The translations under genes were made by a program, and so were the position numbers. Below the pieces are notes generated by a model, which was given only the letters and a program-made list of their open reading frames with translations, searched no databases and had not been told where the DNA came from. Of a stretch of DNA of 64,000 bases, positions 19,141-63,743 are shown in pieces. Within the stretch, counting starts at the first letter, position 1, and each line of letters starts with the position of its first letter. The stretch spans positions 171,864,900-171,928,899 of the forward strand of contig CM041292.1 in the NCBI GenBank assembly GCA_023052935.1, written 5' to 3'. Source of the stretch: Piezodorus guildinii. Lineage: Eukaryota > Arthropoda > Insecta > Hemiptera > Pentatomidae.

Positions 19141-19585
19141 AATTAAAATATTTAGAAAAAGGTTTTCTGTTTTTAATTCTTTATTTTTCATTATTTGCTA
19201 TTATTTTTGACCGCCATCGGAAACTCATTCTTCCAAATTATTTATTTTACATTTTTTTTTTTTTTTTACTACATCGAGCAACAGGCCAAGGTTTATTTAC
19301 AGGCAGTAAATTATACATAAAAATCATACATTACAGTATACTAATTAAAATAATAATAATAATAATTGAAATTTAAACTAATTGGTAATGTACTACATTC
19401 CAGCTTAATTTATAAGATGAAACAAAAAAAATATATATATATTGCTACGGTCAAGACAATGACGGGTGGACCACGCCTGGAGGGGCCTAGATGAGGCTAG
19501 AGACTTCTGGACCTGGACAGTCCTCGAAGTGTCTGGAAAGGCCCACCGCCTTACCTGCGCCCGGGTCTAGAAGATTCGGCAGTGG

Positions 19586-19624
19586 TACAAATAGCGGTCC
19601 CCTGAGCCTGGGTGGGTCAGTCTT
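19586..19624 (+). promoter_or_regulatory. Likely LTR core promoter
   Basis: TACAAATA at 19586-19593 can act as a TATA-like box. TCAGTCTT at 19617-19624 matches the arthropod initiator TCAGT at about 30 bp distance, which would place the U3/R border near 19619. This is predicted from spacing only. Confidence 0.45.
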
Positions 19625-19923
19625 GATCTTGCTCAAGTGAATGTATCAGTGAACAGTGACAGTGAACAACTCGTGACAGTGTGACAGTGTAGTGAAACCG
19701 TGTGTCAGTATTGTGATAATCGGTCGGTGGGAAATTAGAAGACTGTAGTTTATATATAATTTATAGTTGTAAGTCTTAGAATAAGTCTAGCAGATTGTAA
19801 GTAGTTTATTCGTTAGGAATACCTCATTTTATATGTATACTGTTTAGTAGTTAAGCTAGTAATTCCATTATTATTGTTAATATAGTGGTTAGTAATCCCT
19901 TTGTATTTGTGTTTTCTGTATTT

Positions 19924-19929
19924 AATAAA
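19924..19929 (+). terminator. Poly(A) signal in LTR
   Basis: AATAAA about 55 bp before the LTR end. The identical signal in the 3' LTR (25944-25949) would be the one used for the element's transcript. Confidence 0.6.
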
Positions 19930-19988
19930 CATTTGTAATTTGTAAACTGGAGTAGTTCATTTCGCACACCCCGTAGCCCGTAACAATT

Positions 19989-20006
19989 TGGTGTCAGAAG
20001 TGGGAT
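19989..20006 (+). other. Primer-binding site
   Basis: TGGTGTCAGAAGTGGGAT begins three bases after the 5' LTR with TGG, complementary to a tRNA 3' CCA end, as expected for minus-strand priming. I cannot name the tRNA with confidence. Confidence 0.7.
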
Positions 20007-20069: not shown

Positions 20070-21305
20070 ATGACTTCTCAGAGTGTTAGACTGAATGATT
20101 TAAAAGTTGCAGACTTAAGACGGGAGTTAGAAGAACGAGATCTGGATACTTCCGGAACGAAATCAGTACTGCAACAACGCTTGCGCCAATTTTTTGTTGA
20201 TTCAGGGGAAAATCCAGACGAGATTACGTTTGAAAATGATTTCAGTAAGTTGTCTGCAACTTTTAAAACTGAATTAGGTAATGTAGAAAAGAAGTTAGGT
20301 AATGAATTAAGTACTGTTAAAAATGAGTTAGGTAATGTAGAAAAGAAGTTAGGTAATGAATTAAGTACTGTTAAAAATACATTGGAGGCTAAGTTAGGCA
20401 ATTTAGAAACTAAGTTAATGGAAAGTGTAGATAATAAGTTAGCTGATGTAGAATCTAGATTAGGAGAAAAAGTCGATTCAATAGAAAATGAACTTAGGGT
20501 AAGAATAGAAGCTCTAGAAGAACGTATGGGCAACCCACCGACAATCGACACCGACCAACCCTCTGAGAGAAGCCCTCACAACACCATTCCCTCCGCCAAT
20601 GCTGGGATGCCACCAACGCACAACACCATCCCATTGTTCGACGGGAAGACGCCGTGGGAGGACTACGTGACTCTCTTCGAGACAGCGGCTTCGATCCACG
20701 GGTGGTCAAAGGAGACGCAAGCATCAGCGTTGTGCCTAGCCTTGCGTGGAGACGCCTTAGGAGTGCTACAGGGGATGCCCATGTCGGAGCGGTGCAACTA
20801 CGGTGAGCTGATGAAAAGACTGGAGATGCGTTTCGGCCATCGCCACATGGACCAACTATACCGTTCCCAGTTAAAGAACAGGGTCCAGAAGACCAACGAG
20901 ACGCTGCAGGAATTTGAAGCAGATATCGCCCGGCTAGTGAGGAATGCCTACCCAACGGTCACCGACGACGTCTACGAGAGCTTGGCTATCGACAAATTTC
21001 TGGATGGACTTCGAGACCCGGAAACCCAACAGGCAGTGAAACTCGCACGCCCTAAAACTTTGGGCGATGCATTGTCGCAGGCCATGGAATTCGAGGCTGT
21101 CAGGCAGTCAGTCCGTGAACATGCACGAGTTCGAGCGGCAGAAGCGGAGCCTAACGCGGCCCCCACCATCGAGGACATAGTAGCAAAGGTTTTAGAAGCC
21201 CTCAGGACTCGCAAAAAGGAGATACGCTGTTGGAGCTGCGGTCAACTTGGACACCCCAGAAGCAAGTGTCCTACCAGGAAGCCGGAAAAGCCACAGGAAA
21301 ACTAA
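20070..21305 (+). CDS. Gypsy Gag with N-terminal SAP domain and zinc knuckle
   Basis: Structural protein of the retrotransposon particle, 411 residues from the first ATG (20070; the frame is open three codons further, from a GTG). Residues 11-42 form a SAP-type helix-extension-helix (LKVADLRREL, then DTSGTKSVL), a fold that usually binds DNA or chromatin. A coiled-coil stretch follows, with an 18-residue unit duplicated at 69-86 and 87-104 (54-bp tandem repeat, 20274-20381). The capsid-type retrotransposon Gag region begins near W196, and a CX2CX4HX4C knuckle lies at C387-C400. The first 460 bp are AT-rich like the host; the rest is GC-rich. The last 151 nt overlap the open pol frame. Confidence 0.93.
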   Translation: MTSQSVRLNDLKVADLRRELEERDLDTSGTKSVLQQRLRQFFVDSGENPDEITFENDFSKLSATFKTELGNVEKKLGNELSTVKNELGNVEKKLGNELSTVKNTLEAKLGNLETKLMESVDNKLADVESRLGEKVDSIENELRVRIEALEERMGNPPTIDTDQPSERSPHNTIPSANAGMPPTHNTIPLFDGKTPWEDYVTLFETAASIHGWSKETQASALCLALRGDALGVLQGMPMSERCNYGELMKRLEMRFGHRHMDQLYRSQLKNRVQKTNETLQEFEADIARLVRNAYPTVTDDVYESLAIDKFLDGLRDPETQQAVKLARPKTLGDALSQAMEFEAVRQSVREHARVRAAEAEPNAAPTIEDIVAKVLEALRTRKKEIRCWSCGQLGHPRSKCPTRKPEKPQEN

Positions 21306-24300
21306 GGAGGGTTGATGGGAAGGGGCAACTGTCAACCCGTAGCATCAAAGGCCCCAGGGTCGCCGTGAGAATCGCGACAATAGGGAGCAAGACAAATAGT
21401 TTTTATGTGGATGGAATGGTGAACGGGCAGCTGCGGAGTTTTCTGCTGGATACCGGCGCAACCATGGCAATACTGAACCTGAAGGCAGTTAACGCTGAGA
21501 AGATATCACCTACCACTTGGGCGTTACGGACAGCCACAGGACAGCCAGCCGAGGTCTACGGGGAGACAGTTGCCACTTTCTTCATCGGGGGCCAACGTCT
21601 AGAGCACCGCGTTCTCGTGGCGAAAATAGACGAGGAAGTCATCTTCGGCATGGACTTGATGATCAAATACGGGATCAAGCTGGACATGTCGAGAGGTGTG
21701 ATGACGCTGGGAGACGAAGAGGTCATCCTTCGGCAGGGAAAGGACCTCTATGCACGAGTACTCCTACTAGAAGACACCACTTTACCTGCACGGAGTCAAA
21801 TTCTGACGCATGGGACGATCAATGGACGACTACCGGAGGGTCAATGTCTTCTACTTGAACCTGGGAAGCACGAGGAGCAGGAAGTCGGACGCGGTGTTCT
21901 GGTTGCAAGGTCTCTCATCAAGGTCGGACATACCACCCCAATCCGACTGATGAATCTGAACAGCTTCCCGGTGACACTAAAGAGAGGAACACCAGTCGGA
22001 GAATGTACGGCCGCTACCTCAGTAGTCCGACAGCTACAACGCAACCCCACCGAGCAACGAGGACTACCCGAAGAATTAAAAGGATTCGTGGAGGAATCAT
22101 GCAGAGAACTTTCGCCTGAACAGAGCGAAATCGTGAAGAGATTGATTACCCGATGGCAGGACATTTTCGAGATCAGCTCAGGACCACGGGGTAGAACGAA
22201 CATCGTCCAGCACAAAATTGACACCGGGGATACAAAGCCCATCCGACAGATCCCGAGGAGGCTGCCGCTAGCTAAACGAAAGGATGCCGAAGAGATTATT
22301 AAGGATATGGCGAATGATGGTGTCATCGAGCCCTCGAGTAGCCCATGGATGTCTCCTGTCGTACTGGTGAAAAAGAAAGATGGGACGACAAGATTCTGCG
22401 TAGATTACCGTCTTTTGAACAACGCCACGAAGAAGGACAGTTACCCACTCCCAAGGATTGACGACACGCTGGACACACTAGAGGGTTGCAAACTATTTTC
22501 TACCTTGGATCTCCGCAGTGGATATTGGCAGGTTGGATTGGCACCGGAAGATAAGGAGAAGACGGCATTTTCAATCGGCACTGGCCTCTGGCAATTTACG
22601 GTAATGCCATTCGGGCTTTGCAATGCACCTGCAACGTTCGAGAGGCTGATGGAAAGCGTCTTAAGAGGCCTTTCTTGGGAGATATGCCTGGTTTACTTGG
22701 ACGACATCATTGTCCTGGGAAAATCCTTCACTCACCATCTGGAGAATCTGGAGCGGGTCTTCGAACGGCTGCGTGCAGCTAATCTAAAACTGAACCCGAA
22801 GAAGTGCAATCTCTTCCGAAGGCAAGTCAACTACCTGGGGCATGTTGTATCAGACAACGGAGTTGCTGTTGACCCAGAGAAGATTACAGCGATCACCAAT
22901 TGGCCAGCACCTCGAGATAAGCACCAAGTGAGAAGTTTCCTCGGGCTCTGCACCTACTACAGGAGGTACGTGAAAGGATTCGCCAACATCGCAAAACCTC
23001 TTACCAGGCTCACTGAGGAAAAACGGACTTTCCTTTGGGATCGCGAGTGTCAGGCTTCATTTGAGGAGTTGAAGAAGAAATTGAGTAGTGCGCCTATTCT
23101 AAGCTATCCACGTCCCGAGGGCAAGTTCATTCTTGACACAGATGCCAGCAACACTGCTATTGGAAGCGTCCTTTCCCAACTCCAAGACGGGGAAGAAAAG
23201 GTTATTGGGTACTTCAGCAAAGCACTGTCAGCTCCAGAACGCAACTACTGTGTCACAAGGAAAGAGCTTCTGGCAGTGGTTAAGTCCATAGAGCACTTTC
23301 ATAAATACCTGTATGGAAGAAGATTTCTACTGAGAACGGACCACGCAGCTCTAATGTGGCTGCTGCGATTCAAGTCACCGGAGGGACAAGTTGCACGGTG
23401 GATCGAGCGCCTTCAGGAATATGACTTCGAATCTGCTCATCGTTCTGGAACGAGTCACCGGAATGCGGATGCGCTCTCAAGGAGACCCTGTGACGGAGAA
23501 TGCAAGCATTGTTCTCGACAAGAAGAAAAGCAAACAACAGTGTTGCGGACTACGGTCGTTACCGACGGTTGGCAGGACACACAACTGGCAAAGGAACAGG
23601 ACGAGGACCCGGACTTGAAACAAATAAGGGAATGGAAGCTATCAGGCCAAAGGAGACCAAGCTGGCAGGATGTTGCTCCAATGTCGAAAAATATAAAAAC
23701 CTATTGGGCTCAATGGGACTCCATTCTACTGGACAAAGGTCTGCTGAAACGAGCATTGGAGAACACAGAGGGAGATCAGCGGAGACTACAGCTCATCGTA
23801 CCAAAGATTAAAGTGCCCGAAGTACTGAGGGAATTACATGATGGAGCATCTGGTGGCCACCTTGGAGTTCACCGGACATTAGAAAAGGTTCGTGAACGCT
23901 TTTACTGGGCAAACCTCAAGGACGATGTGTTAGATTGGTGCCGGCGGTGTGCAACTTGTGCCGCCTCTAATGGACCGATAAGGAAAAAGAAGGCACCTAT
24001 GAAGAAATACAACGTAGGAGCACCATTCGAGAGAATAGCGGTGGACATCGCTGGCCCTTTTCCTGTGACAGATAATGGCAACCGATATATTCTCGTGGCC
24101 ATGGATTATTTTTCAAAGTGGGTGGAAGCTTACGCCCTTCCAAATCAGGAGGCCACCACGGTTGCAGATGTTCTCGTGAAGCAGCTCGTCAGTCGGTTTG
24201 GGGTGCCCATGGAACTTCACGCTGACCAAGGAAGAAACTTTGAGTCGGCAGTCTTCACCAGGATGTGCGAGGCTCTAGGAATACGAAAGACCAGGACGAC

Positions 24301-24910
24301 GCCTCTTCACCCTCAGTCCGATGGCATGGTAGAGCGCATGAACAGGACAATGGGTCGATATTTGGCCAAGGTAGTTTCTGACCATCAGCGAGACTGGGAC
24401 CAATATCTTCAGCTGTTCCTGCTAGCCTATCGTAGTTCAGTCAATGAAACGACAGGGCAGACCCCCGCCAATGTCGTGTTCGGCAGAGAACTACGCTTGC
24501 CTTGCGATCTGAAATTCGGTTTCAAGCCTGATGAGGAGGTCGCCGGAGAAGACTACGTCACGAACCTACGGAAGCGAATGAACACTATTCACGAGAAGGT
24601 TCGCACAAACATCCAGGGAGCAAGTGACAGAATGAAGGAGCGTTACGACATCAAGGCAGAGAAAGGTGGCTTCCAACCTGGAGACTTGGTCTGGCTACAC
24701 GATCCTCGAAGAAGGCAAGGCTGCTCACCGAAACTTCAAAACTCCTGGGACGGACCGTATGAGGTCATCAAGAGGATCAATGATGTCATCTATAGGATCA
24801 GGAAGCAGCCCAAAGGAAAACCCAAGGTAGTCCATTTCAACCGATTGGCCATTTTGACCATGGCCCTACAGAGGAACAGCAAGTCAGGAACCTCACCGAC
24901 AAGGACCTAA
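21155..24910 (+). CDS. Gypsy Pol polyprotein (protease, RT, RNase H, integrase)
   Basis: The frame is open from 21155. Numbering here starts at a TTG at 21230, giving 1226 residues. Domains in order: aspartic protease with DTGA at 74; reverse transcriptase with the catalytic YLDD box at 489-492; RNase H beginning with Asp636; integrase zinc site H870, H877, C907, C910; catalytic core D939, D999, E1035 (35 residues between the last two); and a C-terminal GPY/F-like module (WDGPYEVI) that binds DNA. All catalytic residues are intact. Pol lies in the -1 frame of gag with 151 nt overlap. There is no obvious ATG, so expression by -1 ribosomal frameshift is likely. Candidate slip sites are cAAAAAG (21212-21218) and GGAAAAC (21296-21302, just before the gag stop); neither is a canonical X XXY YYZ heptamer. 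Confidence 0.95.
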   Translation, partial: RGPHHRGHSSKGFRSPQDSQKGDTLLELRSTWTPQKQVSYQEAGKATGKLRRVDGKGQLSTRSIKGPRVAVRIATIGSKTNSFYVDGMVNGQLRSFLLDTGATMAILNLKAVNAEKISPTTWALRTATGQPAEVYGETVATFFIGGQRLEHRVLVAKIDEEVIFGMDLMIKYGIKLDMSRGVMTLGDEEVILRQGKDLYARVLLLEDTTLPARSQILTHGTINGRLPEGQCLLLEPGKHEEQEVGRGVLVARSLIKVGHTTPIRLMNLNSFPVTLKRGTPVGECTAATSVVRQLQRNPTEQRGLPEELKGFVEESCRELSPEQSEIVKRLITRWQDIFEISSGPRGRTNIVQHKIDTGDTKPIRQIPRRLPLAKRKDAEEIIKDMANDGVIEPSSSPWMSPVVLVKKKDGTTRFCVDYRLLNNATKKDSYPLPRIDDTLDTLEGCKLFSTLDLRSGYWQVGLAPEDKEKTAFSIGTGLWQFTVMPFGLCNAPATFERLMESVLRGLSWEICLVYLDDIIVLGKSFTHHLENLERVFERLRAANLKLNPKKCNLFRRQVNYLGHVVSDNGVAVDPEKITAITNWPAPRDKHQVRSFLGLCTYYRRYVKGFANIAKPLTRLTEEKRTFLWDRECQASFEELKKKLSSAPILSYPRPEGKFILDTDASNTAIGSVLSQLQDGEEKVIGYFSKALSAPERNYCVTRKELLAVVKSIEHFHKYLYGRRFLLRTDHAALMWLLRFKSPEGQVARWIERLQEYDFESAHRSGTSHRNADALSRRPCDGECKHCSRQEEKQTTVLRTTVVTDGWQDTQLAKEQDEDPDLKQIREWKLSGQRRPSWQDVAPMSKNIKTYWAQWDSILLDKGLLKRALENTEGDQRRLQLIVPKIKVPEVLRELHDGASGGHLGVHRTLEKVRERFYWANLKDDVLDWCRRCATCAASNGPIRKKKAPMKKYNVGAPFERIAVDIAGPFPVTDNGNRYILVAMDYFSKWVEAYALPNQEATTVADVLVKQLVSRFGVPMELHADQGRNFESAVFTRMCEALGIRKTRTTPLHPQSDGMVERMNRTMGRYLAKVVSDHQRDWDQYLQLFLLAYRSSVNETTGQTPANVVFGRELRLPCDLKFGFKPDEEVAGEDYVTNLRKRMNTIHEKVRTNIQGASDRMKERYDIKAEKGGFQPGDLVWLHDPRRRQGCSPKLQNSWDGPYEVIKRINDVIYRIRKQPKGKPKVVHFNRLAILTMALQRNSKSGTSPTRT

Positions 24911-25482
24911 TTCCCCATCCTAAGGCGCCAGACTCCCGTAGGGTAACGCAGACAGTTTACAGAGACATATTCTCGTTACCGGTAGACTATGCTCTAGCAC
25001 ATTGCGTCGCCGAACATCTGAGGAATTCCCGGGGGATTGCGACGGTCTTCAGGAAGAAGTTCGCTGGAATTGAAGAGCTGGAACGCCAGGGACCAAGAGT
25101 TGGGAAGGCTCTCCATCAAGAGCATGAAGGCCGGCACCTGTTTTACTTGGTTACCAAGAGTTCATCAGAGCAGAGGCCGACATACGACACACTGCGCCGG
25201 AGTCTTGACGACCTGCGGAGAAAGCTTCTGGAACTGCGTGTCACCAAGCTCGCCATCCCGAAGTTGGGTTGTGGATACGATGGCCTGGAGTGGAGGATTG
25301 TCAGGAACATTGTAGAAGAGACGTTCGCCAACTCTGGAGTCATCATAATGGTATGCACGTTCAACCCCTGGAAAGACAAAACACCTACATCGGAGGAAGA
25401 TCAGCATCGCTCAGCTTCTGCAATCTGTGCTCTGGGGCAGAGCACGTCTAAGGAGGGGGTAGTGCTACGGTCAAGACAATGA
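24796..25482 (+). CDS. TARG1/OARD1-type macrodomain encoded as third frame of the retrotransposon
   Basis: Open from 24796 to a TGA at 25480-25482, inside the first 20 bp of the 3' LTR; 228 codons, counted here from 24796. The macrodomain spans about residues 53-190: RDIFSLP then ALAHCVAEH (the family's G-D/R-hydrophobic and A-H-C-hydrophobic pattern), RGIATVFRKKF, YLVTKSS with Lys121, PTYDTLRRSL, LAIPKLGCGYDGLEW with Asp162, and a final strand VIIMVCTF. TARG1/OARD1 removes ADP-ribose from acidic side chains and deacetylates O-acetyl-ADP-ribose using Lys84 and Asp125; Lys121 and Asp162 have the same 41-residue spacing. No ATG lies upstream of the domain in this frame, which is -1 relative to pol with 115 nt overlap. 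It may be a frameshift extension of Pol, a spliced product or a non-AUG start. Function in the element is inferred, not shown. Confidence 0.85.
   Translation, partial: DQEAAQRKTQGSPFQPIGHFDHGPTEEQQVRNLTDKDLIPHPKAPDSRRVTQTVYRDIFSLPVDYALAHCVAEHLRNSRGIATVFRKKFAGIEELERQGPRVGKALHQEHEGRHLFYLVTKSSSEQRPTYDTLRRSLDDLRRKLLELRVTKLAIPKLGCGYDGLEWRIVRNIVEETFANSGVIIMVCTFNPWKDKTPTSEEDQHRSASAICALGQSTSKEGVVLRSRQ
25450..25459 (+). other. Polypurine tract
   Basis: AAGGAGGGGG, three bases before the 3' LTR, is the expected primer for plus-strand synthesis. It is also coding for the macrodomain frame. Confidence 0.8.
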
Positions 25483-26006
25483 CGGGTGGACCACGCCTGG
25501 AGGGGCCTAGATGAGGCTAGAGACTTCTGGACCTGGACAGTCCTCGAAGTGCCTGGAAAGGCCCACCGCCTTACCTGCGCCCGGGTCTAGAAGATTCGGC
25601 AGTGGTACAAATAGCGGTCCCCTGAGCCTGGGTGGGTCAGTCTTGATCTTGCTCAAGTGAATGTATCAGTGAACAGTGACAGTGAACAACTCGTGACAGT
25701 GTGACAGTGTAGTGAAACCGTGTGTCAGTATTGTGATAATCGGTCGGTGGGAAATTAGAAGACTGTAGTTTATATATAATTTATAGTTGTAAGTCTTAGA
25801 ATAAGTCTAGCAGATTGTAAGTAGTTTATTCGTTAGGAATACCTCATTTTATATGTATACTGTTTAGTAGTTAAGCTAGTAATTCCATTATTATTGTTAA
25901 TATAGTGGTTAGTAATCCCTTTGTATTTGTGTTTTCTGTATTTAATAAACATTTGTAATTTTGTAAACTGGAGTAGTTCATTTCGCACACCCCGTAGCCC
26001 GTAACA
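25463..26006 (+). repeat. 3' LTR
   Basis: 544 bp, TGCTACGG to GTAACA, almost identical to the 5' LTR. The AATAAA at 25944-25949 is intact. Confidence 0.95.
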
Positions 26007-26506
26007 ATATATATTTTACATTTAGTTTCAATGCAAAGTTTGAGTTACAGCATTTAATGCACACCAGCTTATATCGGGTTGATGTGCAATATATTGACTA
26101 TTGGTTTGATTCAGCCGAATTAAAACACTCCCACACGATTGAAGGACATAAAAATTAGTTTTTGAGCGGACAGATGACACGAAGAGATGACTACACGGTA
26201 GAAGTAAGAATAACAATATGTGTAAAAGATGTAACTGTGACCTTTCGGTAGATATATCTCCTCTCCTTGAATACGTTACCGCAACTAGAAACCGTTATTT
26301 ATTATCCAACGCTTGGAGGAAGGTGCAGCACCGCTCTGCCGCTGCAGTACAATACTATCGCAATAGGGTCTTCAATAAAATGCAGTTTATGATCCATACA
26401 TTCAGGAGAAAACATTTCAACAACTTTCATAATGTACCTACCTAATGATCATTATTTGATGTACATACCAGAATATAAAAAAAAAAAATTGACTAGTGAT
26501 GAATCT
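26007..26506. other. Flank of the retrotransposon, unassigned
   Basis: The AT tract interrupted by the element continues here (atatatat). The frame at 26218-26445 has no recognisable family and is not called. Confidence 0.4.
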
Positions 26507-27075
26507 TTTTTTTTTTAAATAACAACAATTTGTATTGAGTAAAATTACAATCTGTCCCAATTTGGACATCAATAGTAGTGCTGAAAGATATCATACATAT
26601 TACATTCATACAATATTTACACAGCATAAAATTACAATAAAATATATACACAATAATGAATCAATACAATAAAGTCAAGAATTCAGTTATACCTAAACAC
26701 ACATACACACACTCATACATACATCACATTGAGTGGAGAATCTAGCCAGTGCTAGAACTCCAATATATTTACAAAAGGTCTGCCGTTTCAACCTTCTAGG
26801 TGGGTTGTATGGATGAGTGGAGCTGGATAGGGATTGAGCTAGAGGATTAGGATGATGAATGAGGTTCTGGTGGAATTTGGTAAATTTGGATGGAATTAGG
26901 TCTGAAATAAATGGAACATTAAGGTCGTGGTGCAAGGTATAGTTGGAGACATAATAAGGAGCATTAACTATTGTACGGAGGACTTTGGACTGAAAGGATT
27001 GAATGCGTTTGATGTTAGTACGTTTTTAGCTGTCCCTCACAGTTCAAGTCCGTAGGTCCAGATGGGCTTCAGTAG
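26507..27075 (-). mobile_element. Jockey-like LINE, 5'-truncated 3' end
   Basis: The poly(A) tail appears as T-rich sequence at 26507-26516. On the minus strand the ORF2 tail reads DLNVPFISDLIP, then FHQNLIHHPN and a proline/serine-rich end leading to PPRRLKRQ. The same subfamily lies in opposite orientation at 29.0-29.7 kb. Frames are partly broken. Confidence 0.7.
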
Positions 27076-29004
27076 TGATGAATCTAAAGAAGGGGAACGT
27101 TCGCTTTTTGGATTGATCCTAGAGTAGATTGATTAAAAAAAGGATACCATGCCTTGTTTGGCTTAATTGCAGTTAGTTAGGGCATTAAACTCCCTAATTT
27201 ATCTTCATCCAAAAATAAAAAAAATCTACTTCTGGATCTCTGATATAATAACAATATATAATTCTTACACTCTAAAGCACTAAATTCTTTGGCTGTACTT
27301 AAATAATTAGTTTTAAAGGTCCTTATGCCATAAAAAGTATATTGTTATGGCATAAGAATTATTTTTGGTTAATTCTTTTCAATAATGAATCTTTGTAATC
27401 GACCAAAAAAAAAAAAAATGAACTCCACTCAAAATACATTTCAAGATATGTAGAACCTAAATAACGAAAAAAAATCTGTTTGTATCTGTTGTTAATTAAT
27501 AAATATATTATGCTTGATAAAGAATGAAGTTCATTACAAAACATAAAAGAATCATTGAAATCGGTTCAGAAATAGCAGAAATATAGCGTTTTGAAATTAG
27601 CAGTGATGATAGGCCATTTTCTTTTGAATTATTTATTGTTTTTTTATATTATTTAATTGTCTAAAAACAGCTACATAAACGGTTATACACTAATATAGTT
27701 ATCTGGAAAACAATTTAAATATACAAAAATACTCTAGTTTATTACTTCCGAAATTTTATTTTTTAAACATAATTCTTTTGTTTGCACGTGTTTCTATCTA
27801 AAGTAATAATCAGCGAATGTGCTGATGGGATATGAAAATATGATTTGTTAGCGGTAGAGAAGGGTAGCACTTATTCCTAGGCTTGAATTATGATTTACTT
27901 TTGCAGATCTCGCATCCAGCTCCTTTTTATCCGTTTTCCAAGAAACATTTCTGCTGTTAGCATGTCGTTTATCAGTCTGTATTTATGTCCGTTGTAGAGC
28001 CAGGTTGTAAATGAAAATTTGTAAGTGTTGGTCGATTGTTGTAAGTCAGTATGTATGATTTTGTTGTTCAAGTACAATACAACTGCTGTTATGAATCTTA
28101 AAATTTTTAATTGAAATGATTAATTTGCAGTCTTTGTAGATGAATTTTTTGCTGAACCAAAAATCTGTGAGGCTCTTTATCAAAACATGAAAGTTCGATG
28201 CCAGTAACATCAATAATATTTTCTTATATTACCTTAACAATACAGTATAATATATAACATAACTACATTGTGGTCAGACCAGAAATAATTATTTCTCCAA
28301 CGTCTAACTTATGTTTTAATCTGTGAGGCCATGTGGGTTCCATTAGGTATGTTTATGTATTCAGTTTCAGTTTAATTCTAAGTTTTTACGATATGGATAA
28401 AATGCGGAAAAATACTTGTAGTTTGTTAAGAATATTTCTTTACATGCTGACTTGTTGGTCTCTTATGTTCAGAAAAAATAAATGCAATATTTTTAAATCA
28501 CGATTTTATCGAAGAATAAAACCAAAATTACTTTTCTCCTTCCAAAACAACAATATTAAATTTCTTGCGGTATTGATAAAACCATTTACTTTAACCTCTC
28601 AAGACCAAAATATTTATAACTTGGCTAAATATTGATTAAATGTATATATTCAATAATTAAATGATTAACCTCATTGTTATGCTAATATTCTCTAAGGAGT
28701 TAAATGTTCCCAGTCGCGATTTCTCATCATCTCCCTTTTTTCATATTAATAACGGAAACAGTCGGCAGCCTTGAGATAGGCTAGTGAACCCTAAAGGTAG
28801 TTGCATTATATTCCATGCTCTGCAAAAATCCAACGGAGACGATTACTTGAGAAACGTATTAACTCAGCTTGATATTATCGGAGGAATATAGGGCATCGTG
28901 AAAAGTATAATTTATACAGGAAAGTAAAATCTCATACTGAAATAATATTCAAAATTATAGAGAACACGTTAATAAGACGAAAAACCGTTCTAATAATTGT
29001 CCTA
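27076..29004. other. Unassigned AT-rich sequence
   Basis: No gene or recognised repeat. The frame at 28333-28635 has strongly AT-driven composition and no domain. Confidence 0.4.
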
Positions 29005-29722
29005 AAGACTAACTTGGAACCCGCATACTAGACTTGAACGACAAGAACTTAATCGACGATTTGGACAATTATACAGACTACTGAACAGAAATTCTAAACT
29101 ATCTATCGAGAACAAACTGTTAATATACAAGACAGTACTGAAACCTATCTAGACCTACGGACTTGAACTGTGGGGGACAGCCAAATTTTGTAACATCAAA
29201 CGCATTTAATCCTTCCAATCTAAAGTCCTCCGAACAATAGTTAATGCCCCTTATTATGTATCCAACCATACCTTACACCGCGACCAAAATATTCCATTTA
29301 TTTTAGACCTTATACCATTAAAATTCTCTAAATTTCATCAGAACCTTATCCATCACCCTAATCCCCTAGCTCAATCCTTATCCAGCTCCACACATCCTTA
29401 CCATCCTCCTAGAAGGCTGAAACGGCAGTGGCCTCGAGACCTCTTGTAACATGTATATTGGAGTTCTAGCATTGGCTAGATTCTCCACTCACGTGCTGTA
29501 TGCTTGTGAATTGTATATAGGTATGAGTGACTTTTGTATATATTCTATTGATTTTGTTTTGTATATATGTATATTGTATTATTATTATATAAATTTATTG
29601 TTTAGTATATATCGTGTGAATGTAGTATGAATGTTGTACTTTATCACTATTAAAAATGTCCTAAATTGGACAGATTGTAATATTACTCAATAAAGAATTG
29701 TTTCTAAAAAAAAAAAAAAAAA
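29005..29722 (+). mobile_element. Jockey-like LINE, 5'-truncated 3' end with poly(A)
   Basis: Plus-strand translation, with a few stops, follows the end of Jockey ORF2: LNRNSKLSIENKLLIYKTV, then TYGLELWGTA, SKVLRTIVNAPYYV and HHPNPLAQSL. A 3' untranslated region and an A18-like tail at 29706-29722 close it. A premature TAG replaces the Trp in the usual P-x-W-T-Y-G motif, so it is dead on arrival or decayed. Confidence 0.75.
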
Positions 29723-62665: not shown

Positions 62666-63502
62666 TCAGCGAATAGTAATAGTAACCCCTCTTGGAAGGT
62701 TGAGACCCAAGTCTTTCACTGCCAGGGAGAAAATGATAGGTCTAAGGACGCAGCCCTGAGGGACACCGCTGTTTTGAGAATTATTTTCAGAAAGTTTGCA
62801 GCCTACCCTTACTCTGAAACGGCGATTAGTTAGAAACTGCTTAATGAAAGCAAGCATTTGGCCCCTTATTCCAATTGAGGCTAGTTTACGCAGAATAACT
62901 GCATGGGCAATACAATCGAAAGCTTTTATCATATCAAAGAATACTGCTCCTAGTAGTTGGTTATTGATAAAGGAATATTGTGCTTCGGCTTCTAATACAA
63001 CCAAATGATCTATCGTGGAGCGACCTTTGCAAAATCCTGATTGATAAGGTTGTAGAAGTTTGTCTCTTTCTATCATCCACATTAATCTTTTGTTTACCAT
63101 CCGTTCCATGGTTTTGCCAAGGCAGTTAGTAAGGAAGATCGGGCGGTAGCTAGATGGTAACCTCTTATCTTTACTGGTTTTTAAAATGGGAACCACAAGG
63201 GAGTCACGCCAGCCATTCGAAAAGCCTCCTATGGACCAGATATGATTGAAATAATCAAGGAGCCCTTGAAGAGTATCGTTGGGTAAGTTTTTAATCATTT
63301 CATAGTGAATGTTGTTGGGGCCAGGTGATGATCCTTTCACTGAGTTTAAGACCTCTTTCAATTCCCAAATTAAAAATTGAATGTTGTAGACTGATGTCGA
63401 GTCATCTAGGTTATTACAAATTTCTATTTCATTGGGGATGGTATTGCTGTTTGTATTATTGTTTCTATTTTCATTATATATATATAAGAGAAAAATTGGC
63501 AA
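62666..63502 (-). pseudogene. LINE reverse transcriptase, frameshifted
   Basis: Motifs in order: SSPGPNNIHYEMIKNLP, LPSSYRPIFLTNCLGKTMER, FFDMIKAFDCIAH (motif A) and NSGVPQGCVL (motif B). The frame then ends; in a neighbouring frame the sequence continues as LLLLFADEMAITD at about 62690-62650. A small indel near the GGGG run at 62686-62692 explains the break. The catalytic F-A-D-D box reads F-A-D-E, a second lesion. Confidence 0.8.
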
Positions 63503-63743
63503 ATGTATTTGAAACGATTAAGGGATTGTCGGTCAGTCTTTCATTAACTAATAGAGTGAGGTTGGGAGAGGATACATTTTTGGTTAGTTTGTGGACTTTT
63601 TTCCAGACAGTTGCAGAATTTATAGAACTAACAAATTGTTTCCAAGATTCCTTTTAATAATAGCTGAAGGTAGTTCTGTATACGACTCAATATTTTTTAT
63701 ACTCGATAAGATTTTTTAAAGTCATACTTTTTAGAAATTTTTT

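Follow-up and report, generated by a model that had tools for sequence, protein, structure and literature searches.

A macrodomain behind the integrase of a Ty3/Gypsy element

The 64,000-nucleotide window analyzed here, from contig CM041292.1 of Piezodorus guildinii (Hemiptera; Pentatomidae), contains a retrotransposon of the Ty3/Gypsy (Metaviridae) group, and downstream of its integrase lies a reading frame resembling the human enzyme TARG1/OARD1 (C6orf130). An earlier interpretation, drawn from the nucleotide sequence without database searches (the sequence-only reading), had described this frame as a macrodomain carried as a third open reading frame (ORF) by an element with nearly identical long terminal repeats (LTRs). 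The coding features and repeats of the element described below are all on the forward strand, and positions are those of the window.

The frame (24796..25482) is stop-free, encodes 228 amino acids in the -1 register relative to pol, has no ATG ahead of the domain, and displays all of the sequence blocks ALAHC, RGIA, YLVTK and GCGYDGLEW. Within it, positions 24928..25359 specify a full TARG1-type macrodomain with the catalytic residues in place. In a phmmer search against Protein Data Bank (PDB) chains, human C6orf130/TARG1 is matched at E 1.5e-31 across residues 45-188 of the frame, and Lys121 (codon 25156-25158) and Asp162 (codon 25279-25281) align with the human catalytic lysine and aspartate (K84 and D125 in the numbering taken from the sequence-only reading). 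The spacing is 41 residues in both proteins, so that the class and the catalytic pair proposed earlier are both borne out. TARG1 is the best match by sequence and by predicted fold, ahead of other macrodomain classes.

The window domain scores 17.2 bits against the Pfam Macro family (PF01661), under the cut-off of 22, so a plain Pfam scan at this cut-off, which is a detection threshold and no structural criterion, misses it. Two relatives, P0003 (32.7 bits) and P0021 (22.1 bits), clear the same cut-off. In an alignment of 37 family rows, lysine and aspartate are both retained in 31 of the 34 rows with both columns filled.

The element itself is bounded by a 5′ LTR of 543 bp (19443..19985; TGCTACGG...CGTAACA) and a 3′ LTR (25463..26006) that pair with one another. 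The pair differs by one substitution and one indel across 544 columns, which confirms the near-identity noted earlier and makes the insertion look young. A 4-bp target duplication, ATAT, flanks both sides (19439..19442 and 26007-26010). The primer binding site TGGTGTCAGAAGTGGGAT (19989..20006) and the polypurine tract (PPT) GGAGGGGG (25452..25459) were read from the sequence, the former looking complementary to the 3′ end of what we take to be tRNA-Leu. The gag ORF (20070..21305) encodes an N-terminal SAP domain (20091..20195; PF02037, 45.7 bits, 4.5e-12), coiled-coil-like repeats, a capsid-like region and a C-terminal CCHC zinc knuckle, which falls below the Pfam cut-off; Retrotrans_gag is also matched (1.9e-5). 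SAP is a DNA-binding module, and here it opens Gag.

The pol ORF (21155..24910) lies in the -1 frame relative to gag, and no canonical slippery heptamer is present where the two overlap in the window copy. Pfam matches place an aspartyl protease at 21407..21661 (PF13975, 1.2e-8), a reverse transcriptase at 22400..22846 (PF00078, 1.9e-34; left end fixed by the piece searched), RNase H at 23036..23422 (PF17919, PF17917), the integrase H2C2 zinc-binding and catalytic core regions at 23798..24313 (PF17921, 5.1e-20; PF00665, 1.9e-16), and the integrase C-terminal (p58 C) domain at 24752..24850 (PF22938, 3.6e-14). This order, together with the two LTRs, primer binding site, PPT and target duplication, is that of Ty3/Gypsy elements. 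The p58 C domain is the final Pol domain ahead of a linker (24851..24927) that leads to the macrodomain. No chromodomain was matched by Pfam to E 0.1 in the pol pieces of the window.

Integration sites were compared across 90 loci of the P. guildinii genome (L015-L104), which yielded 80 distinct 3′ flanks with a 4-bp target motif, RTAY: T occupies position 2 in 97% and A position 3 in 93%, and ATAT is the commonest set of first four bases (33 of 80). At one locus, L033, the flank of the 3′ LTR enters a primer binding site directly, so that one LTR is apparently common to two tandem elements.

The frame break is not a property of the family

In the window copy, the pol frame stops at 24910 and is overlapped by the macrodomain frame for 115 nt (24796-24910), so the domain sits in a different frame from integrase and does not share its ORF. 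One way of reading this overlap is that the macrodomain forms a third ORF in its own right, translated through -1 ribosomal frameshifting or from a spliced RNA. The overlap, however, contains no canonical slippery heptamer (X-XXY-YYZ) in the pol frame, no methionine precedes the domain in its own frame, and most of the other copies examined are continuous. Splice sites were scanned crudely in the window element. On these grounds the third-ORF explanation is rejected as hardly credible.

The comparison with other copies was made in the animal's own 1.2-Gb genome, in which the window copy is L037. This genome yields 104 matches to the 7tm_6 odorant-receptor family, which is not known outside insects, against none in 14 control genomes. 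An open stretch of at least 138 codons precedes the macrodomain core in 27 of the 30 top copies, the exceptions being L027, L042 and the window copy. One linker length is common to 26 of the 27 other copies measured (L022 and L042 were left out, and L027 deviates), and the window linker departs from it by a length that is not a multiple of three. The window copy is therefore frame-broken between integrase and macrodomain, and continuous sister copies exist. A separate macrodomain frame is a trait of this copy and a few others and not of the family; what the sequence-only reading took for a third frame is normally the C-terminal domain of Pol. The same reading had held that an intact frame in a young element argues for use, an argument that fails for the window copy because its frame has no ATG and is separated from Pol.

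Among the best 150 of 542 candidate domain matches in the genome, all 150 are 99-100% identical and free of internal stops, although ranking by best match favors intact copies. Two further queries each gave 149 of 150 stop-free matches, the same single place carrying a TGA. The lengths of 149 frames among these best matches reveal two frequent forms, one of 1444 codons (pol-macro) and one of about 1800-1860 codons (gag-pol-macro in a single frame). Exactly 1444 codons are found in 39 of them and at least 1770, about the size of gag-pol-macro, in 29; at least 300 codons are present in 142, and the remaining seven include the 228 codons of the window copy.

The fusion extends across an integrase clade

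Similar fusions are found in other species. A database search queried with the integrase region of pol returned 1568 matches, of which the best 120 were examined with a macrodomain hidden Markov model. A macrodomain stands behind integrase in 25 of the 28 nearest Pols (67-93% integrase identity; P0019, P0028 and P0033 are incomplete) and in none of the other 92. An integrase tree of 83 sequences (the window and 82 of these 120 matches), rooted at its midpoint and built from database matches with no named reference clades, contains a 29-row clade that includes the window and all 26 macrodomain-bearing rows, with a Shimodaira-Hasegawa-like approximate likelihood ratio (SH-aLRT) support of 98. 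The presence of the domain requires four changes on this tree, against about 22 when labels are shuffled, and none of 500 shuffles was as low. The fusion of Pol and macrodomain is clade-wide.

The closest relative among the matches listed is P0009, with 93% identity in integrase and 84% in the macrodomain, both in one 1371-aa protein. Named members of the clade include the beetles Molorchus and Callosobruchus and the powdery mildew Erysiphe pulchra, which may reflect contamination; smaller fragments occur in Macrosteles and Nilaparvata, and also in Pyrocoelia and Brassicogethes. The E. pulchra records P0012 and P0029 hold members of an otherwise insect-associated family, and P0029 runs on from macrodomain and CCCH finger into a coiled-coil-like stretch and then a gag-like region. 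Three proteins annotated as OARD1-like in Macrosteles and Nilaparvata (P0001, P0002 and P0007) are 64, 57 and 50% identical to the window macrodomain; P0001 sits among the retroelement macrodomains in the tree described below, and P0001 and P0002 start with a retroelement-like linker.

Behind the macrodomain, many members carry a second module. The pattern C-x7-C-x5-C-x3-H is present in 16 of the 27 members with a tail of at least 25 residues. Among five members scanned with the Pfam zf-CCCH profile, P0030 passes (22.6 against 20.5) and the other four give CCCH matches below the cut-off. The finger is absent from the window element and from those closest to it, whereas P0032 and P0036, the first branches in the integrase tree, hold both macrodomain and finger. 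The finger may therefore have been present early and then lost in the subclade of the window, although the next branch has a modest SH-aLRT of 80 and the macrodomain tree does not put P0032 and P0036 first. None of the 95 Pols lacking a macrodomain has the finger, but this absence carries little weight: most of those inspected stop no more than about 20 residues past integrase.

Origin of the domain

A tree of 47 macrodomains sorts 29 retroelement sequences, 10 animal TARG1 sequences (none from an arthropod) and 8 sequences from bacteria or viral contigs into one group each, with supports of 99/97, 100/98 and 100/97, respectively. This topology fits a single entry of the domain into the retroelement clade. 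The proposal of the sequence-only reading that the element took up a host-type hydrolase remains unproven, since retroelement, animal and bacterial TARG1-like groups are separate in the tree. A bacterial or phage origin was also considered. Scans of IMG/VR and of genomes yielded 2 and 12 loci, respectively, at 31-37% identity; 8 of the 14 entered the tree, which does not resolve a donor.

A mammalian TARG1 query (P0131) against the P. guildinii genome gave matches of 38-40% identity among the best 150 of 508, apparently all copies of the element; no host TARG1 gene was recognized among these 150, and a spliced single host gene could rank lower. Passages of a review describe TARG1 as patchy in invertebrates, being present in flies and lost from the honey bee (PMC4245714).

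Selection on the macrodomain

Ranking copies by protein match biases a test of selection, and so 30 loci were instead taken by the PPT-LTR junction motif, which occurs with at most two mismatches at 475 places in the genome and at none in a reversed control. The sample was chosen blind to the domain by taking exact matches in genome order up to the thirtieth, and all of its loci lie on contig C1. All 30 loci carry the macrodomain, and 26 have it complete and gapless; L076, L085 and L088 have a gap or are one end base short, and L087 is partial. No in-frame stop occurs in the 26 gapless copies, so the presence of an open frame in other copies, one of the checks proposed with the sequence-only reading, is confirmed.

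The second such check, for purifying selection, gives a weak signal. Across the 26 copies, the per-site ratio of nonsynonymous to synonymous polymorphism (pN/pS) in the macrodomain is 0.38 (11 synonymous and 12 nonsynonymous changes), below 1, and p in a simple binomial test on all domain changes ranges from 0.011 to 0.055 with the share of synonymous changes that is assumed. Single-copy changes number nine synonymous and seven nonsynonymous in the domain, and eight and fifteen in integrase. Constraint on the domain within this genome is suggested at best. The LTRs of the same 26 copies diverge by 4.4% and the domain by 0.7%, a difference not leaned on here because the linker (1.7%) and the tail (0.4%) vary too, and some of the contrast can be put down to recombination or to a recent sweep. 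Across the clade, the constraint is stronger than within the genome, in that the domain is kept open and fused and its catalytic pair is largely retained. Identities of domain and integrase are correlated (0.69, 23 members).

Several observations weigh against a conserved enzymatic role. The domain ratio comes from 23 changes and is weaker than that of an integrase segment, at 0.079 (22 synonymous and 16 nonsynonymous changes in 22 gapless copies). Changes common to at least two copies are the likelier ones to stem from active lineages. They number two synonymous and five nonsynonymous in the domain, a per-site ratio of 0.79, and fourteen and one in integrase (0.02); with n = 7, these shared changes argue that the active lineage does not hold the domain under strong constraint. 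The domain also evolves faster than integrase, with a mean identity of 50% against 74% across the clade. Three of the 28 nearest Pols (P0016, P0022 and P0035) are without it, which implies that it is dispensable at times. Lysine is replaced by arginine in P0026 and P0036, and aspartate by asparagine in P0032 and P0036; the degenerate fragment P0008, which was uncounted because of gaps, lacks both residues by eye. Finally, no simple extension of Pol can yield the fusion from the window copy.

It could be that the macrodomain is a captured cellular passenger at the 3′ end of the element, under little or no selection. The pN/pS of 0.38 on few sites, the excess of nonsynonymous shared changes, the faster evolution, the relatives without the domain and its separation from Pol in the window copy all speak for this explanation. 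It is nonetheless improbable, given that the domain is open and in frame in Pols down to about 68% integrase identity, that its active-site residues are retained, and that copies sampled without regard to the domain contain no stops.

Possible functions

Macrodomains bind ADP-ribose, and ADP-ribose erasers are weapons of RNA viruses against PARP-based immunity. To our knowledge, insects have no interferon system. The window contains a young, frame-broken copy of a family whose Pol normally ends in a TARG1-type macrodomain. The interpretation preferred here, with a probability of about 0.53, is that this domain works as an ADP-ribose hydrolase. The domain would be produced as part of Gag-Pol, at the end of Pol, and would be packaged in the virus-like particle with reverse transcriptase and integrase. 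In the particle or in the nucleus, it could then act as a hydrolase, stripping ADP-ribose placed by host PARPs on proteins of the element or on bases of its RNA or single-stranded cDNA. The window copy may have broken after insertion, or may have been copied by the proteins of sister elements. The role in counter-defense that the sequence-only reading suggested is a plausible hypothesis. Exons for a PARP catalytic domain are present at two places in the P. guildinii genome (four matches).

The nature of the substrate can be considered further. Available passages of one study report that human TARG1 and Drosophila Targ1 and Targ3 remove uracil-linked ADP-ribose in vitro, that human TARG1 also removes the thymine-linked form, and that human PARP10 can ADP-ribosylate both bases (PMC13036486). 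Uracil and thymine substrates would both be exposed by an element with RNA and single-stranded cDNA stages in its cycle. The CCCH finger of many members might help to hold RNA, and by analogy its position beside the eraser fits an RNA-bound target; such fingers are described, in passages of a further paper, as the RNA-binding part of ZAP/PARP13, a restrictor of L1 retrotransposition (PMC4441479). Conceivably, insects defend themselves by ADP-ribosylating bases in the RNA or cDNA of retroelements, and the TARG1-type eraser linked to integrase in this Ty3/Gypsy clade, accompanied in many members by a CCCH finger, serves to clean the element's own nucleic acids; the two sides would then form an animal equivalent of the bacterial DarT/DarG conflict. 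This more specific scenario is speculative and, on balance, doubtful. A small-molecule substrate such as O-acyl-ADP-ribose, free ADP-ribose or breakdown products of NAD, in place of proteins or nucleic acids of the element, is quite improbable: fusion to integrase and the frequent finger would seem to point to a macromolecule bound to nucleic acid.

A different role follows from the location of the domain. Chromoviruses are Ty3/Gypsy elements with a chromodomain behind integrase, and the macrodomain lies directly behind the integrase C-terminal domain, in the same position. As an ADP-ribose binder, it might serve as a reader and anchor the integration complex at ADP-ribosylated chromatin or at sites occupied by PARPs, hydrolysis being secondary. 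The early-branching P0032 and P0036 keep the domain despite the altered aspartate in both and the altered lysine in P0036, as might be expected of a reader. The widespread retention of the hydrolase lysine and aspartate, on the other hand, seemingly exceeds what a pure reader needs, and the target preference that is visible is a short DNA motif, RTAY, of the kind expected of integrase itself. The RTAY preference does not decide between hydrolase and reader, and overall a targeting function seems rather unlikely. Taken as a candidate hydrolase, the fused domain suggests that ADP-ribosylation is a battleground of insects and their retrotransposons.

Other features of the window

Scanning the window with Rfam and for tRNA genes gave no match. 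On the reverse strand, an ORF at 62666-63517 resembles, by eye, a fragment of a non-LTR reverse transcriptase. An inverted repeat of 238 nt (26780-29428), 86% complementary and with arms 2173 nt apart, adjoins the element.

Comparison with known systems

An eraser lineage fused to integrase would extend the conflict over PARPs to insect retroelements, and it would serve as a natural probe of PARP action on them. There is also a caution for annotation, in that insect genes labeled OARD1-like can be pieces of retroelements, as the three leafhopper and planthopper cases illustrate.

The nearest characterized relative of the domain, human TARG1 (PDB 4j5q, 4j5r, 4j5s), is a stand-alone cellular enzyme, with 152 residues in the mammalian entry P0131, whereas the retroelement version is a C-terminal domain of Pol. 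The macrodomain of DarG from bacterial DarTG (PDB 5m31, 5m3e, 5m3i) shares 21-23% identity in structural alignment; DarG is an antitoxin that occurs outside retroelements, unlike the window domain. In chromoviruses, as in the clade described here, an extra domain lies behind the integrase C-terminal domain, the macrodomain replacing the chromodomain in the present case.

Viral proteins provide further parallels. Among BFVD models, Kadipiro virus VP8 and proteins of thrips-associated RNA viruses have a TARG1-like fold, with a template-modeling (TM) score of up to 0.92 and 41% identity, although these are RNA viruses in which the domain has other gene contexts. The individual models are A0A8E0KJF2 (Kadipiro virus VP8, TM 0.92) and A0A7G9IR66 (Frankliniella-associated flavi-like virus, TM 0.89). 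TARG1-like homologs are known in viral genomes, and viral macrodomains have been reviewed, according to passages of the review cited above (PMC4245714). An excerpt of another paper, citing Basta et al. 2009, states that epsilon-like retroviruses of fish hold macro domain ORFs (PMC4977317). As described in that excerpt, these teleost endogenous retroviruses are, like the window element, LTR retroelements with a macro domain; theirs is an additional ORF of an epsilon-like virus, whereas here it is fused to Pol in an insect Ty3/Gypsy family. No Ty3/Gypsy element with a macrodomain was found in the literature among the matches listed, with subscription journals mostly uncovered. A macrodomain-bearing LTR retroelement is thus already known, and what appears to be new is a captured, putative ADP-ribose eraser that defines a clade, is fused to Pol, and is often accompanied by a CCCH finger.
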